From Diplosphaera chodatii (lineage: Eukaryota; Chlorophyta; Trebouxiophyceae; Prasiolales; Stichococcaceae): DNA of 64,000 nt. Location: the NCBI GenBank assembly GCA_032358165.1, contig JAALGY010000021.1, forward strand, positions 1,302,001 through 1,366,000. Reading direction: 5' to 3'. Shown in pieces: positions 33,510 to 42,627 of this stretch. Every line of letters starts with the position of its first letter. The stretch's first letter is position 1. Below the pieces are notes generated by a model. The model was not told where the DNA came from, did no database searches, and saw only the letters and a list, made by a program, of their open reading frames with translations. The position numbers and the translations under genes were made by a program.

Positions 33510-36500
33510 ATGGCGGCGGAGGCCCCAGGCAGCCCCACAACCAATGGCGATTACAAGCGAGGCCAGCCGACGTCCAGCGTCCCTGAGTCACCGCAGTATG
33601 GCAGCAGCAGCCCCACTGCCGGAGACCGCGGCCGCCCGCACGGCTTCACGGCGCGCCTCACGGGTCGCCTGACCGGGCGCCTGAACCGCATGATGTCTGG
33701 GCTCCCACCTGCCCAGCCAGCGAACGAGTATACCGCCATGCAGGCAAGATTACATACTACTAGTACCTTGACACCTTGCAGTGTCCTGGCGATGGACGCA
33801 TGTGATGTATTCTGGAGCATCACAGTGGTGCACTGCAGCCACAACTGTATTTACAGGATGAAGGCACTTCAGGGTTACTTGCAAACCATGATGCAGGGGC
33901 GGCTGCAGCAAGAGTATGCAGACATCCAGCTCCGTGCGCAGCAGCTCATGTCGACCATGGACATCCCAGGTCGGTCAACGCTGTGCTGCACCTGCTGATC
34001 ACTCGACGCCATTCATGGTGCTCACCTGCAGTGTTGCCAGTAGCAGTTAGCAACCGACCAACACCGACTGCCACCAGCATATGGCTTTGCACCTTGCAGA
34101 TGGTCCCATGGCCGACTACGACGATGTGCGCAGCCCTGGCCACTCCAGTGCTGCCAGCAAGCAGCTGAATGGCTCGCGGCCCCAGTCAGCGAACTTCACC
34201 ATTGGCGCTGGTGTGCCGGCAGACGTGGCATCCAGATACCACGACAGTGAGCTGCTGCTGCTCTCACAGATGGGATTCATCGGATGGCCTCCAAGAGCCT
34301 TGTTTTGGTTTAAGAATTGCAGCAGCGATTGGTGCCATGGATGCAACATGAAACTGAATTGCCCTGACAACACTACATCGCTGAATATGCCCGTCCATGG
34401 CACCCACAGGCATGTCACAGCTTGGGGATGGTGTGGGGCCCACAGACAAACCGCCAAGGAACTACATGGCCAACGCCTTTGATCAACGTGACCCGGAGAC
34501 ACCAACGAATGCAAAGGATCCGGGTGCAGGAATCATGTTTGAGGAGGAGCGGTGAGCATTGGCTCTTGCTGAGCTTCCAGTCCGACATGTGCCGGTGCCG
34601 GCGAAATGCGCTCACCACAGCCTGGGCGTGGCAGCATGCCTGCAGCATGCTGGAGGGTGGCGCAGCAGCTATCAGTCAAGCTCTGCAGACTTGGCTCTCT
34701 GCTGAAGGTGCACACAAACGTCATGGAGCTTTCCACCGCAGGGTGCCGAAGAAGTACAAGCGGCGGACGGAGGTCAACTGGGTGGGCACCCTTGCATACA
34801 TCTTCTTCTTCTGCGCCTTTGGCTTCTACCTGTGGATCCGCATCACAAAGACACTCGACCTGGGTCTATATGTCGGTAAGCAACTCATCCACTCGAATCA
34901 GGGTTGCTCACAATCATGGAATCTGTTCACTGACATCATGCAAATATCAGTCTGTATCCAGTGTACCTGGAGCAGACGCTGACTCATTATCAGGGTAACG
35001 ACCCTCAAGGGGCTTGCCTTGTCTTGCAGGGTACGGTGTGTTCGTGTTGATCGTTGAGATCATTGGTGCAACGACCGTCATGCTGTATGGCGTCAACCTG
35101 CTGTGGAACCCCGTCATTGAGAAGTTTGAGGAGGACCCGATGCTGCCAGGCCGGCCCAAGGTCTGACATGTCGAATACCCTCAACAGCATGTCAACAGAA
35201 CTCAGTGTGCGATACGCGGTTTGACATCCCGTGTTTGCTGTTCTCTCCATGCAATCCAGCTGCACCGACACTAGGATTGGGAAGTTGATACCCACACCAG
35301 CGTTTGCCACAGAGGAGGTTACCCCATGGTTATCCCAAAGGTTTAGACCATTCTGGCGCGTGCAGGTCGAGCTGCCGTACCATGTGCGGGTGCTGGTGCC
35401 GTGTTACAAGGAGGACCTCGCAATTGTGCGGCGCACAGTCATGGCGGCGTACGATGCGCTGCTGCCGGCGGGCTGCGCACGCACCATCTACCTGTGCGAC
35501 GACGGCAAGGATCCCAAGAAACGCGCCTTCTGTGAGGCGCTGGGGCCTGAGGTGCACGGGACACCACCCACCCAGCCTGGATACCTGCGTGCACTTTGAC
35601 ACATAGCCAACCTGATTGCACGGTAGCAAGCAATCACATGTGCATGCAGCAAACTCAATGCATCCTGGTGGTGATAGTGTCCAGAATGACTGAGCAAACG
35701 CATAGTCCTGTTAAGATCCCAGGCAAGCAAACAGCCCGACATGATGTGAGCTGTCTGCAGGTGGTGTATGTGTCGGGACGCAAGCGGCCAGCTGGCGAGA
35801 TGAACGGCAAGTCTGGCAACATCAACAACTGCTGCTCCCAGATCTACCCCAAGGGCACCATGATCCCGACCAACGAAGTGGTTTGCATCTTCGATGCCGA
35901 TCAGGTACCTGCTGATGACACAGGCACTGTCCATCTGTGACTGAACGGGCTCTCAACAATGATGCGATGCTGGGCCAAGATCAAGGCGCCCGCTGTTGAT
36001 ATGTCGTGCATGATGTGAATGGATGTGCTGCGAACCCATACTGTTGGCTGAGCAGGTGTGCTCAACGTCCTTCTACCTGAAGACACTGCCGCTCTTTGAC
36101 GGTGGCGACGATGTGGGCATGGTGCTTTCGCCGCAGTGCTTCCACAACCTGAACATGCACGCCGACATCTTCAACCACTCCAACGTCCACTTTTGGGAGT
36201 GAGTGCATATCCACCACGAAGTGCTGTGTGATGCCAGGTAACTTGTGAGAGGCACTACACGGGGGATGGGACAGCAGTTTTCGGCTCAAGTGTCCGGCTG
36301 CTCATTAACCCCATGGCCAGCACCACTTGTGCAGCCACAAGTCTGCACCTGCAGGTACATGCAGCCTGGATACGATGCGCTGGGCTTCATCAGCTGCACT
36401 GGCACCAACTTTGTGGTACGGGCAGCAGCGCTCAAGGAGGTCGGCGGGTCGCCCACCTACACACTGACTGAGGACTTCGCACTGGGCATGGCGCTGAAGA

Positions 36501-39500
36501 TGTATGGCTGGCACTGCCGCTACGTGCAGGTGGGTCTGCATGCTGCCACCGCTTGCTGTCCCATCCAGGAATGCATGCTGCAATTGGTCCACAGGGTACC
36601 TTGAGCAGAGCTGTTGCGCTTGTTTTGCAGGAATACCTTGCCATCGGGGAGGCACCTGACCAGATCCGCAACTGCTACCAACAGCGGTCCCGTTGGTGCA
36701 AGGTGCGCTTCATCTTCCAGGATCTAAACGCTCTGATATGTTGAATGTGAATGGCTTTATCAGTCATGACCTATTGGCTCTTCTGGGCGACCGTGGTGTG
36801 CGCTGTGTGCCGGTTATGCTGGCTACACAAAGTATCTGCTGCAGGGTAGCCCTGATGCTGCCACTGCTGCAGACCAACACCGCACTTCTTCTGCAGGGCC
36901 ACTTCCAGATCATGTTCGACAGCAAGCACTGCCCGCTGCTGCAGCGGCGCCTCAACTTGGGCATGAAGCTCATGTACGCATCCGGCGTCTGGTCCTATGT
37001 GGTGTGTGCACTGTGTGCCTGACGCTTGTAGCTGGTCCTGCTGGGGGTGATGAGCATCCGGTGCAAAAGTACATCGTCACATTAGATGCAGCCGAACAAA
37101 GACTCAGCATACAGGTTGACATTGCTCCGCAAAGCGTCATGCAATAGCAAGAGGACACTTGTTGCTATGCATGTAGGTGGGTGCGATCAGCACGCCCACC
37201 TTTATCATCATCCCTATCATCACAATCTTTGGAGGGTTGTTCCCTATCATCATCAACTGGTGGGCAGCGCTCGGCGTCACTGTGTACGGCATCTCAACCC
37301 AGCTGGTGCGGTCATCTGGCGCATCGATGTCTGGAGTGTCTCGCTCACAATAGTATCCATCTACTGCCTTGCATGGTTGACTCATTGGCCGCAGGTGCTG
37401 TACTATGTCCGCAGCCCAAAGCATCTCGAGGCTCTGTGGTTTGCCAATGTTGGCAATCAGGTCCTGTGGTGGACGTACGTGAAGGCTTGCTGGCGTGCAG
37501 TGGGCTCAGTCATTGCCAAGAAGGGCATCACCTTCAAGACAACTGTGAAGGTGGGCGCATGCACTGCTACCTGTCGCAAAGTGCCCATGCAATGGGCAGC
37601 GTCAATATACCCCGAGTGCACATCATAGGCGAGCTGCATGTGCAGACTCACTCCTGCAAAAAGCAGTGTCGATCAATTTGTCGATGCAGGGCGGTGGCAC
37701 CATGGCAGCAGGCAACATTCGTGATCTCTGGATGCCACTGCTCTGCCTCATTTTGCTGTTCGCATCCGTGATATATGGTGCGTTCGCAGGCTGCTGCAAA
37801 CAGTGATGACGGGCAACGGTTGCATGGCCTGGCAGCATACATGATTGCAGCCTGTATGTAACCGCTCCATTGATGCTCCCAGGCCTGGTGGACTTGGCCT
37901 CCGGCGCATCGCTCAGGTCGCCGCTGATCATATCCATCCTATGGGCTTTCTACAACATGATCCCGCCGCTGCTGGTGGTGTGGTATGCATGGATGTCAAC
38001 GGGCACATCCCTCCAGTGGCTCTGCAGGTCCGTTACGTGCATGCTGCAGACACCATCGTAGCCTGGAAGTCCTGCCACTGGCGCCACTCCCTGCAATGGC
38101 TGCCTGTGCTGCCGTCGAATGAGAATGCATAGCACAGGTTGCATTACCGCTGTCATGTTGTGTCGCTTTTGCATACAGGATTGCACTGCCGCTGTCCTTC
38201 CTGACCATGTCGCTGGCGCTCGCCTTCATGTGGTTCCTGTGAGCTGCTTGCCCTTGTGCATCACCACCGTCATGCCTGATTGGCCACTGGCTTGAAGTGT
38301 AGCACTTTAATGTCTGTGTTCGGCGAACAGCAGATGATTTGAACGTTGTCTTGGCATCATTGGCCAGGTATCCGGAGAAGTTTGACTACACGAACACACT
38401 GGGCAAATCCATGTTCTATTACGAGGCCAACATGCTCGGGACCCTGCCGTCGGGGTGGGTGCTGCCTTATGCAATCCTGAAGCTTGAAGCTTGCCCATGT
38501 GTTTTCCAGTACTGTGCCCTGCTGACATGCTCCCGGTCAGCGGAGCCAGTTGGCCGTTCTTGACTGAGAGTGCCGGCCGCTTTCAGGTATGACATATCAT
38601 GGCGGGGCGACGCGTTTACGAACGACACGACTGTTGATGGCGGTGACCTCACTGGCGGCTGGATCGGTGGTGGAACCACTGGTGAGTGACATTGCCACCT
38701 GAGTCTTCAGATGATGGTACTGAAAGTGTCCTGCCATGGTCCTCGACTGCAACATGATTGATTGACAGTGGGCATTGCCTCGAACATATTGCAATCGAGG
38801 GTGCGCACGGTGTGTGCCAACAGTTCACTATCCAAATGGTTGCAGGCATTGTGAAGATGACCATCCCCACTGCTTTCACCACGACAATGCTAGCGTGGAG
38901 CATGCTGTCGTTTCCAAAGGCATACGTCGCGGCCGGTGCGGTTGCTAGCACAACGTCCCAGGTCGGCTGGGGCGCTGACTATTTGTTGAAAACCTTTGCA
39001 ACCAGCACGGCAGCGACTAACACCACCAATGGCACCACAGGCTCGATCGTCTACCAGGTATCCCAGCTGTCCCCATGTGACTTTTTGCCCAAGTACGAGG
39101 CTGGGATACTCAACGCTCGAACCAGCTTCCTGCTTTGTTGAAAAGCGTGAAAGCCATTCTAGCAGATCGCCGCTTAGAATTTGGCTCCAAGCAGAGGTGC
39201 TACATGGAGCCGACATGGCTAGACAGCGTTTGCCAATGTGCAGGTCGGCAATTACACCCTGCTGAAATCCTACTGGGGGCACGTAGAGGACTTGACAGGT
39301 GTAAACCCGACTTACAGCACCGCCATCCCAGATGGCGCCTCTGACTTGGGCGGCCAGGTGCGCCACTGCAGGCCAGAAGCTGTCACATCAGTTGTGGTTT
39401 GCATCTCATATTGGGCATGCCGCCAAGTGACACGCGGATTGACCAATGCGTCATACCAGATGTTTAAGGCTGACCACTCGGGCTGCATGGCTTTGCAGGT

Positions 39501-41760
39501 CGTGGCAGCGCTGGCGGCAGCCTCGCTGGTGTTCCGAGGCAGTGACCCTGCCTATGCCGGCCGGCTGCTGGGATCTGCGTTGGGGCTGTATGGCGAGATC
39601 AGCGACACCGCCAACCATGGCTCCTACTCCAACATCGTGCAGGAGGACTGCCGCAACCCTGGCGACCCTGATGTGGTAATAATTGCAATGTGCTCTGCTG
39701 TCAGCGCCACAGCTGGAAGTGCTCACACTGCCAGGGCTGGGCTGCGCATGGCCTGTGGCATGCGGCGTGTCACCTTTGACCTGGTTGCATGTATGTATCA
39801 GCAGCACACGCATGCAGTCGAGGCATCTGAGCTGCTGGGCTAGACCTTGAGTATGGTTTGAGCACAATGCTCCACTCCATGTGCAGGTCATAGGCGGCAG
39901 TCGTTTGCCGCTGTGTGGGTCATACGAGAAGGTGCTTGCTGCGGATGATGGCGGCATTGGCGGCTCCGCCATCGACCAGTACCATTCGCACTCCTACTAC
40001 GACGATCTGGCATGGGCTGCCGCCTGGCTGTACCGTGCATCAAGTGCGCATCTGTAGCGCTGCAGCAAGCTGTGCACATTGGTGTATAACCATGTCTCAT
40101 CTGTCTATGGTGTGCTCTTCTGCTGCTCTACCTGCATTGACGGTTCAAAAGTCCTGCAGCCCTTGCAATGTTGCAAAGATGTCCAGTTGCCAGCTGTCAG
40201 CTGCAGCTGATTGCTGGCCATGCTGAGTATGCAGCGGACAACGATGTTTCGTACCTGATTGACGCGCAAGCGTTCTACGTCCGCCATGTCAACAGTGAGC
40301 CAGGCTCTGAGAAGCTGGTGTGGGACTACGACAACATGTACTGGGCCATCAATGTCTTCCTGGCGCAGATCACAAATGACGGTGCGCTATACGCTACAGA
40401 CAGTACACATCTGCATTGCTGAAGCCAATCATGGCACTTGTAGCTGCTACCTCTGTAGGGCACACTCAATGAGCACATGTACAACATGTGCCCCTGCTTG
40501 GGCCTCTGCACGTGCATCGTGGCACATGAGGTCTACATGACGCTTGATAGTCTGACCTGTCAGACTTGATTGATGCAGACGCGGCACATGAGCGCTCGCG
40601 CTACTTCATGAAGCAGTGGATCTGCGGCGCAAACCCACAGCTCAAGTTCACAGACAAGGGCATGGCCTACAACCTCAACGCACAAACCTACCTGGCAACG
40701 CAAACCTCCGTGTTTTTGGCGTCCATCTACGGTACTTGCCTCTAGCTTGCAAAGCACATGCAGGTGTTGTTGACCATGAGACAGCAATGTGTGCGCATGT
40801 CGCAGTCAGTGATGTCACACAGCCAGCGTGAAGCAGGTCAGCGGATGCTTGCAGGCAATGTGGTGCACCGGAGCGAGAAGGCGAGCGCCAAACGGTACCT
40901 TTGCTGGGCACGCGCCCAGATGCGGTGCGTCACACCCCACTGAGACCTTTGCCACACTCTGGCCAAGTCATGTGCTGCTGCATGGATGTGCTGTATGAAC
41001 TCGACGCTTGCACGTGCCCCCGGAGGATTCGGGAGCAGAGGCACCCACCGCTAGTACATCCTCGCTCACATGGCTTCACAACCGATGCAGACTCCCGCTT
41101 GCAGGTATGTGATGGGCGACAACAAGGAGAGCCTGGTGGTGGGGTACGGCACCGACCCGCCGACACACGCCGCCAGCATGCCAGCCTCCTGCCCCGCCCG
41201 CCCGCTGCCCTGCAGCGTCTTCTCCGCCTACCTGACGCCCAACCCTAATCCGAACGTGCTTACCGGCGCCCTTGTCCAGGTGGGAGCTGTCAGGCATACA
41301 ATGGTGCATTTGCCATTGCCATGGTCACACGGTCAACATGTCGTGAGCTGTGCTGGCTTCCGAGCAGAACAGCACCGACGCAGCTGGCCTCATGGTGTTT
41401 GCTGCGTGCTCGCAGGGACGGTATGGCTCGGACATTTTCAACGACGTCCGCAATCTCAATGACACCATCACCAGCATTGAGCTGAATGCTGCCTTCACTG
41501 GCGCACTTGCAGGTAGGTGGCTCCAGATCATGCTAGCCCAGGGTCACCAGAGAAAATACTTCGGTCCTGCATAAACAGCGCGTCCCATTCGGGCCTTGCA
41601 AGGATGCTCTGTCCTATCTGCAGGCCTGGCAAAGGCGCCGGGCACCTGGGAGCAGTGCTTGCAGGGCTATGGGCCCTTCATTGTCGACCGCTCAGGTGAG
41701 CTCGTCTCAGTGTTGTCCCTGCATACTCGAGGCTGCTTGGCTATATGCGGTGGCTGGTGA
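33510..41760 (+). CDS. Cellulose-synthase-like GT2 fused to a GH9 cellulase-like domain
   Basis: One gene encodes a membrane beta-glucan synthase joined to a cellulase-like domain. The start at 33510 (MAAEAPGSPTTNGDYKRG) leads into a cytosolic, Gln-rich N-terminus. Two transmembrane helices (near 34780-34850 and 35030-35110) precede the GT2 core: VRVLVPCYKED, YLCDDGKDPKK (DD), VVCIFDADQ (DxD), TLTEDFALG (TED) and QQRSRWCKG (QxxRW). Five more helices follow to FMWFL at 38238. A GT-AG intron (38239-38367) then joins CT to G, giving L, and continues YPEKFDYTNTLGKSMFYYEA, the start of GH9. GH9 blocks run to GALAGLAKAPGTWEQC near 41660. The stop is at 41758-41760 if read through, or about 41795 if a last intron is removed. 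There is no RING finger or plant-specific CesA insertion. Seven helices place GH9 outside the membrane. A glucan product is inferred; cellulose itself is not proven. Confidence 0.82.
34741..38238 (+). other. GT2 synthase portion of the fusion
   Basis: The region from VPKKYKRRTEVNW to FMWFL covers two N-terminal helices, the cytosolic processive glycosyltransferase domain with all four catalytic signatures, and five C-terminal helices (near 36955-37000, 37185-37300, 37705-37780, 37910-37995, 38180-38238). The motif GEMNGKSGNINN near 35795-35830 is the donor-loop block of synthases that use nucleotide sugars. All residues needed for activity appear intact. Confidence 0.82.
38368..41760 (+). other. 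GH9-like domain of the fusion, catalytic residues replaced
   Basis: The GH9 fold is recognisable from end to end: WRGDAF, GGDLTGGW, IPTAFTTTMLAWSML near 38870, VGWGADYLLKTF near 38970, VGNYTLLKSYWGHVEDLTG near 39245, AALAAASLVFRGSDPAYA near 39520, SYYDDLAWAAAWLYRAS near 40000, VMGDNKESLVVGYGTDPP near 41110, NPNVLTGALV near 41250 and NAAFTGALA near 41485. The family YDAGD stretch, which holds the catalytic base Asp residues, is replaced by IGGGTTG at 38661-38681. The position of the catalytic Glu (family NE-VALDYNAGF) is Ile in TITSIELNAAF near 41465-41490. The family HHR segment reads PPTHAASMP. The domain is therefore predicted to be inactive. Confidence 0.75.
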
Positions 41761-42627
41761 CCCTGTCCCTTGCTGCATACGCAGTGTGCCATTGACGAAG
41801 CAGGGGTACCCCAATACTGGTACAGTACGGCTGTGGCCTAGTGCACTGAGTACAGATAATCAGCTTGTGTGTCGGGGCATCAGGGATGCACTATGCCCGC
41901 AGGCCCAGATAGAGGGGCATCAGGTAGGGTGGGGATATTGAACTAGACCAATCGTTCATAGAGACATTTGACCACTTTGCATCATTGGCGTCGCTCATGA
42001 AACCTCCTCCAAGCTCACATTCCACAGTGGATCCTATGCATACAGCTGTGTCACGGTTGGGCTGCTGATGCCTACACGGCCCTATCTGCAAGCTGAGGTG
42101 CACTCTAGGGCTTAATCTGCTGCCGGACAATCAGACCTACGTGGCCCCTGCAAATCTTCGTTGCAAGTTGTAGCTAAACCACATACATACATGCCTGCAT
42201 AGGTGATGACAAATGGCATCGGCTCCTACATGCACTTAAACCTGCTGAAGATATTGATCAGAAGTACTCGACAACCACCACTTCCAAAACCAGTTGTGCA
42301 CCTGCTCTATTCTAAGCCTATAGTAGTGCCAACATGCACCAGAGCCTGCCACAGATAATCCCGCCATCATACTTCAAGGACCCAGCACTCCCATTCTGCG
42401 TCATCATGCAACCAACAGGCACCTCAGCCGCAGATCTGCAAGCCGCATGCGCGGCACCAGCAGCGGTCCCTGCCGTCACAATTGGACTGTGACAGCAGGC
42501 TTAGGTGTGTCATATCTGGCCCACTGCCCCCGCCACTTTCACCAATTGTGCAGTACCACAGAGGGGCTGTCGCGAGGCTGCCATATTGATGTCTGCTGTT
42601 GTTACCCTACTGCTGCACACCAAAGAG
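41761..42627. other. Convergent intergenic region, no gene seen
   Basis: This holds the 3' ends of the GT2-GH9 fusion and of the minus-strand coiled-coil gene. No domain-bearing frame was seen. Confidence 0.45.

Follow-up and report, generated by a model that had tools for sequence, protein, structure and literature searches.

KORRIGAN, the plant protein of glycoside hydrolase family 9 (GH9) that works with cellulose synthase, has an N-terminal anchor of its own, is not part of the synthase polypeptide and has its catalytic residues intact, and the bacterial cellulose synthase BcsA carries a PilZ domain and no GH9. Here we analyse a gene of the green alga Diplosphaera chodatii, located in a stretch of 64,000 nucleotides (contig JAALGY010000021.1, positions 1,302,001 to 1,366,000; hereafter the window), that is predicted to encode a synthase of glycosyltransferase family 2 (GT2) followed by a GH9 domain. 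It shares with KORRIGAN a GH9-fold protein at the membrane in cellulose synthesis, but the domain is fused to the synthase, which sets the gene apart from the KORRIGAN type. The synthase part is like BcsA in sequence and predicted fold; the window protein has GH9 and, in contrast to the bacterial proteins P0192, P0194 and P0195, no Pfam match to PilZ. In the excerpted reports on tunicate cellulose synthases (GT2 plus GH6; PMC6523144, PMC7464555), a seven-helix synthase is followed by a cellulase-family domain, as in the window, except that GH6 and not GH9 lies behind the last helix. The catalytic Asp of this GH6 domain is described as not conserved and the domain as possibly inactive (PMC7464555), contrary to the excerpted text of Blanc et al. 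2012 (PMC3446292), which credits it with cellulase activity. The same text reports four GT2-GH9 proteins in Coccomyxa, both domains in one protein as in the window, and notes the tunicate parallel. The GT2-GH9 architecture is already known; an earlier note on this DNA, whose likening of the gene to KORRIGAN and to the tunicate GT2-GH6 protein was apt, had suggested that it would be a third solution and not a standard architecture. The window gene is an algal fusion of the kind described by Blanc et al., a further member from another alga, and the public Coccomyxa fusion P0010 aligns with its product over the whole length. The excerpted Coccomyxa report says nothing on the state of the catalytic residues, and no mention of catalytic loss in algal fused GH9 domains was found in the open-licence literature searched, that excerpt and those of PMC7570368, PMC3797821 and PMC11096116 included.

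The GH9 domain of the window gene is likely a pseudo-enzyme under strong selection, a parallel to the tunicate protein with a different hydrolase family. The parts of the gene are, in window coordinates:

33510 to 41795, forward strand: whole gene model, 30 exons, 1284 amino acids, stop codon 41793-41795; the first four exons are the least certain.
34742 to 38238, forward strand: exons of the membrane-bound GT2 synthase, with two helices, the transferase domain and five helices (helix count predicted from an orthologue, P0001 of Coccomyxa).
35495 to 36696, forward strand: GT2 motifs CDDGKD (35495-35512), FDADQ (35890-35904), TED (36467-36475) and QQRSRW (up to 36696).
38239 to 38367, forward strand: junction intron, 129 nt, phase 2, absent from eight of nine sister loci.
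38368 to 41792, forward strand: exons encoding the GH9 fold and the C-terminal tail, from the gene model, Pfam and spliced alignment.
38666 to 38847, forward strand: counterpart of the DAGD site of GH9 cellulases, reading GGGTTG (Gly819 and Gly824 at both Asp positions), interrupted by an intron at 38682-38845.
41467 to 41469, forward strand: codon of Ile1243, at the catalytic-Glu position of GH9 cellulases by alignment.

The model was built from the DNA. Our own spliced aligner, driven by the public proteins P0001, P0005 and P0010, returned one and the same set of exons between 35030 and 39357 for all three, and each time chose this junction intron. Exon 40235-40381 was placed by alignment to relatives. 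Least certain are the exons that precede position 34742 or so and a small one at 40855, which the aligner put at 40837 instead with two of the three queries. The start proposed earlier was retained, whereas the end was moved from 41760 to the stop codon given above. The complete processive motif set noted before was found (CDDGKD at residue 339, FDADQ at 401, TED at 491, QQRSRW at 528) and matches the D, DxD, TED, QxxRW signature of cellulose-synthase-type GT2. In a first model of 1300 residues, Pfam places PF13641/PF13632 at 302-587 and, behind it, PF00759 at 770-1272 (E 7e-69), matched over its whole profile (1-444 of 444). The best sequence matches in the PDB are bacterial cellulose synthase (5ej1, 4hg6) for the synthase and cellulases (1ks8, 8ihx) for GH9. 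The gating-loop motif of cellulose synthases is FxVTxK; the corresponding region reads FKTTVK at residue 660 in the window and FKVTPK in the C13/C44 copies. From its BcsA-like synthase, the product would be cellulose or another beta-1,4-glucan.

In GH9 enzymes the acid is the catalytic Glu. In the DAGD motif the second Asp acts as base while the first has a supporting role, according to the excerpted text of PMC6032398. We aligned 171 GH9 stretches, each of more than 330 residues, shorter ones being excluded, and read the columns corresponding to D55, D58 and E424 of T. fusca E4. In the window, Gly819, Gly824 and Ile1243 replace the Asp, Asp and Glu of active cellulases. GH9-type hydrolysis is therefore unlikely, and cutting by this domain has likely been lost; the full-length GH9 claimed from the letters alone stands as a fold but not as an active site, and the working cellulase pictured beside the emerging glucan is contradicted for this gene. 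Among 80 fused rows, 73 had letters at all three sites, and the triad was complete in nine and entirely replaced in 55, whereas of 91 unfused rows (89 with letters) 81 kept it and one had lost all three residues; for public rows alone, 9/63 fused and 81/85 unfused domains are complete, all these rows containing near-copies and being drawn from two queries, one of the changed type, so that the fractions are no unbiased census. In the 55 fully changed domains D58 became Gly in 54, and the catalytic Glu became Arg in 32 and Trp in eight. Two public fusions (P0069, P0075) keep both Asp with Arg in place of Glu. The paired loci C32/C21 of this genome read DFGD, with one extra residue, and also have Arg for Glu; both Asp may be kept there. 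By alignment, all 14 GH9 loci found in this genome lack a complete triad, although the model at C44:1266k is unreliable at its C-terminus and 4/18 scored sets hinge on poor model ends.

Our preferred reading, to which we give somewhat more credence than doubt, is that the gene encodes a single membrane protein, a processive GT2 beta-glucan synthase joined to a GH9-fold domain that serves as a non-cutting partner of the emerging chain. The synthase runs directly into GH9 as one reading frame; the GH9 domain, its catalytic residues replaced, would probably no longer hydrolyse by the GH9 mechanism, is retained by selection and so has a use, and would lie outside the membrane. At the channel exit this pseudo-enzyme, derived from a once active cellulase, would guide, hold or align the new chain, a role of the sort also suggested for the tunicate fusion. 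The position outside is predicted because two helices precede and five follow the transferase. This count, like the position itself, had been proposed earlier and agrees with the AlphaFold2 (AF2) model of orthologue P0001, whereas hydropathy of the window protein gives two plus four blocks, of which one extends over about 44 residues. The same model predicts, with high confidence, a six-hairpin GH9 fold behind a BcsA-like synthase, and the window protein matches PF00759 above its cut-off; the structure match is that of P0001, not of the window protein.

Several observations weigh against this reading. The loss of cutting is deduced from sequence, and topology and product are predicted. Nine fusions have a complete triad; a dead domain is no rule of the GT2-GH9 architecture, and the generalisation that all fused GH9 domains are dead was wrong. 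Some relatives lack GH9, synthases with GT2 only nesting within the fused groups at several places of the GT2 tree. Finally, the cleft itself has changed. The positions considered here belong to the sugar-binding cleft. In the 55 changed domains, H125, W313, R317, H376 and H377 have each ceased to be the most frequent letter and W256 does not even rank among the top three, while at W209 the fused rows, intact ones included, lack a residue. Y318 differs also in the nine intact fusions. Better kept are W128 (in 53 of the 55), Y206 (51), W260 (45), R378 (38) and D261 (35), where the window has Trp, Tyr, Tyr, Met and Asp, hence Tyr for W260 and Met for R378. Since sugar-binding positions are also altered, chain binding in the old cleft is only putative.

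The loss of cleft positions besides the catalytic ones lends some weight to a less probable but serious alternative, namely that the dead domain is a structural or assembly part that aids folding, packing or travel of the synthase, or binding to a wall partner, without touching the glucan. New conserved Cys residues and strong selection across the whole domain also fit this explanation. Five Cys columns, none of them canonical consensus, are 95-100% conserved in the changed group; two of the five sit in the C-terminal tail, where canonical rows mostly have no letters. A tail of CLQGxG type occurs in 31/55 changed, 2/9 intact fused, 0/16 partial and 0/81 canonical domains. What tells against a purely structural part is that most changed domains still have W128, Y206 and W260, and that almost no linker follows the last membrane helix, which places the domain near the exit.

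That the domain still cuts glucan by means of different residues, editing the chain as KORRIGAN may do, is improbable. Its predicted fold is kept, and the nine fusions with a complete triad (P0071, P0073, P0076, P0078, P0095, P0114, P0115, P0116 from Bryopsis, and P0117) speak for such a function: these proteins, P0116, P0078 and seven metagenome proteins, have the domain order of the window and a small junction gap where measurable. They retain D, D and E, however, and form a GH9 clade of their own, whereas the window has lost all three acids as well as active-site His residues, and its changed relatives almost uniformly carry Gly at the base and often Arg at the acid. The catalytic Glu is kept in three of the four unfused GH9 copies of this genome, and these copies (L029, L031, L032 and L034, at C13:820k/C44:1266k and C7:36k/C18:52k) read YYEAGG at the YDAGD site of cellulases. 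A string of this type is also present in P0171, P0198, P0200-P0205 and P0218, including Elliptochloris and Coccomyxa proteins, and marks another GH9 group whose base is altered. An unfused GH9 of the tunicate Clavelina lepadiformis (P0119) carries Gly at the base position and Ser at that of the Glu, and a distant protein of 1540 residues with Pfam GT2 and GH9 (P0191) has an intact-looking NEVALDYNAG site.

The loss of the catalytic residues, the relatives without GH9 and a 2-nt deletion in one copy might also suggest that GH9 is here a useless passenger in decay, which we consider very improbable in view of the selection on it, the high-confidence predicted fold and the new conserved Cys. A GH9 search of the 85.6-Mb genome (55 contigs) gave 38 exon matches, grouped into 14 loci. 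GT2-GH9 fusions make up ten of the 14, in five near-copy pairs: C19 (the window)/C25, C27/C26, C13:138k/C44:607k, C3/C10:2939k and C32/C21. The loci C44:607k, C10:2939k, C32 and C21 were at one point taken as unfused, which was dropped when spliced alignment showed a synthase upstream of all four. In these sister-locus models, also from the spliced aligner, first and last exons are often spurious. Ratios of nonsynonymous to synonymous substitution rates (dN/dS, Nei-Gojobori) between pair partners were 0.029 for GT2 and 0.040 for GH9 in C19/C25, 0.055 and 0.053 in C27/C26, 0.063 and 0.049 in C13/C44, 0.078 and 0.102 in C3/C10, and 0.051 and 0.050 in C32/C21, values obtained after masking codons in poorly aligned stretches (29/1280, 86/1132, 25/1016, 21/1096 and 6/979), which lowers dN somewhat. 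The GH9 domain is under strong selection, about as strong as on the synthase part, and therefore has a use; for comparison, the first 200 residues encoded by the window gene give 0.172 when treated in the same way. The deletion, in the C26 copy (L020) relative to C27, shifts the frame about 20 codons past the junction and reflects either a broken copy or an assembly error. Near-copies of every GH9 locus occur in pairs in the assembly. The partner of the window gene lies at C25:2107500-2125143, and for this pair a stretch of 2 kb that begins 6 kb downstream also matches C25, at 78% and at the expected distance. This suggests a hybrid, with the pairs as homeologues, or else haplotypes that differ very strongly.

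It is scarcely credible that the synthase ends at the TGA at 38239 and is followed by a separate GH9 gene: a retained junction intron would indeed bring that TGA into frame immediately behind the last helix, but the intron is missing at eight of the nine sister loci, the TGA reads TGC in C25, and public proteins, three of them with transcript-style names (P0044, P0045 and P0074), have the same junction. The intron, which splits a Leu codon (CT|G), had been predicted at this length and phase from the letters alone, and this was borne out. Among the nine sister loci it occurs only in C25, at the same place and phase, with 127 nt and an identity of 69%, while the exons on either side are 93% identical; since C25 reads TGC, the window TGA is not a conserved stop. 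At the other loci the last membrane helix and the GH9 start lie in a single uninterrupted exon. As these sister genes lack the intron, GT2 and GH9 form one reading frame, which is the strongest evidence for the fusion. Of the public fusions, 59 match both domains over a long stretch; the gap between the two matches is at most 15 residues in 52 of them, and 65 to 661 in the other seven. The names of the three proteins are of the TRINITY or GHUV kind used in EukProt, from which we read them as assembled transcripts. A single polypeptide containing both domains, as the earlier note had it, is strongly supported by these comparisons of sequence.

In two protein searches, each scoring the best 7994 word-sharing candidates, 113 and 90 proteins passed; named fusions come at least from Coccomyxa, Elliptochloris, Trebouxia, Myrmecia, Symbiochloris, Apatococcus, Auxenochlorella, Chlorella, Micractinium, Botryococcus, Monoraphidium, Chlamydomonas sp. 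UWO 241, Haematococcus and Bryopsis. Coccomyxa belongs to the Trebouxiophyceae and Haematococcus to the Chlorophyceae; Bryopsis we take to be of the Ulvophyceae, and the classes of the other genera are likewise assumed. The triad is broken in every scoreable named trebouxiophyte and chlorophycean fusion. Trees were built for GH9 (88 rows, catalytic columns removed) and GT2 (80 rows), both as quick searches with some long branches. In the GH9 tree, 51 changed fused rows formed one side of a branch (Shimodaira-Hasegawa-like approximate likelihood ratio test, SH-aLRT, 87) and the nine intact fused rows their own clade (SH-aLRT 100), with the unfused algal rows P0096, P0129 and P0150 between them (SH-aLRT 87). 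A single fused clade was not rejected by the approximately unbiased (AU) test (p 0.348), so that one fusion, as against two, is neither rejected nor shown. The synthases without GH9 that nest among fused ones in the GT2 tree (P0040 and P0041 from Coccomyxa, P0049, P0052, P0053 and P0056) fit later loss of GH9; P0040 and P0041 share a branch of 95 with the window.

The tunicate and algal fusions are independent, since their hydrolase families differ, and the algal fusion may be old, since named cases come from Trebouxiophyceae, Chlorophyceae and Bryopsis. We regard as evenly balanced the broader proposition that eukaryotes twice joined a cellulase to a synthase and then switched the cellulase off, with GH6 in tunicates and GH9 in green algae, the dead domain of an old algal fusion having become a permanent chain-handling module. 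If this is true, the active fused form in another lineage would make the change from cutter to helper testable within one gene family.

It has long been asked why cellulose synthesis, with KORRIGAN in plants and BcsZ in bacteria, needs a cellulase at all. Because GH9 domains both active and dead are covalently joined to the synthase in this family, the question can be put directly whether cutting, or mere contact with the chain, is what is needed. If selection maintains a dead cellulase here, and another in tunicates, contact that does not cut may suffice.

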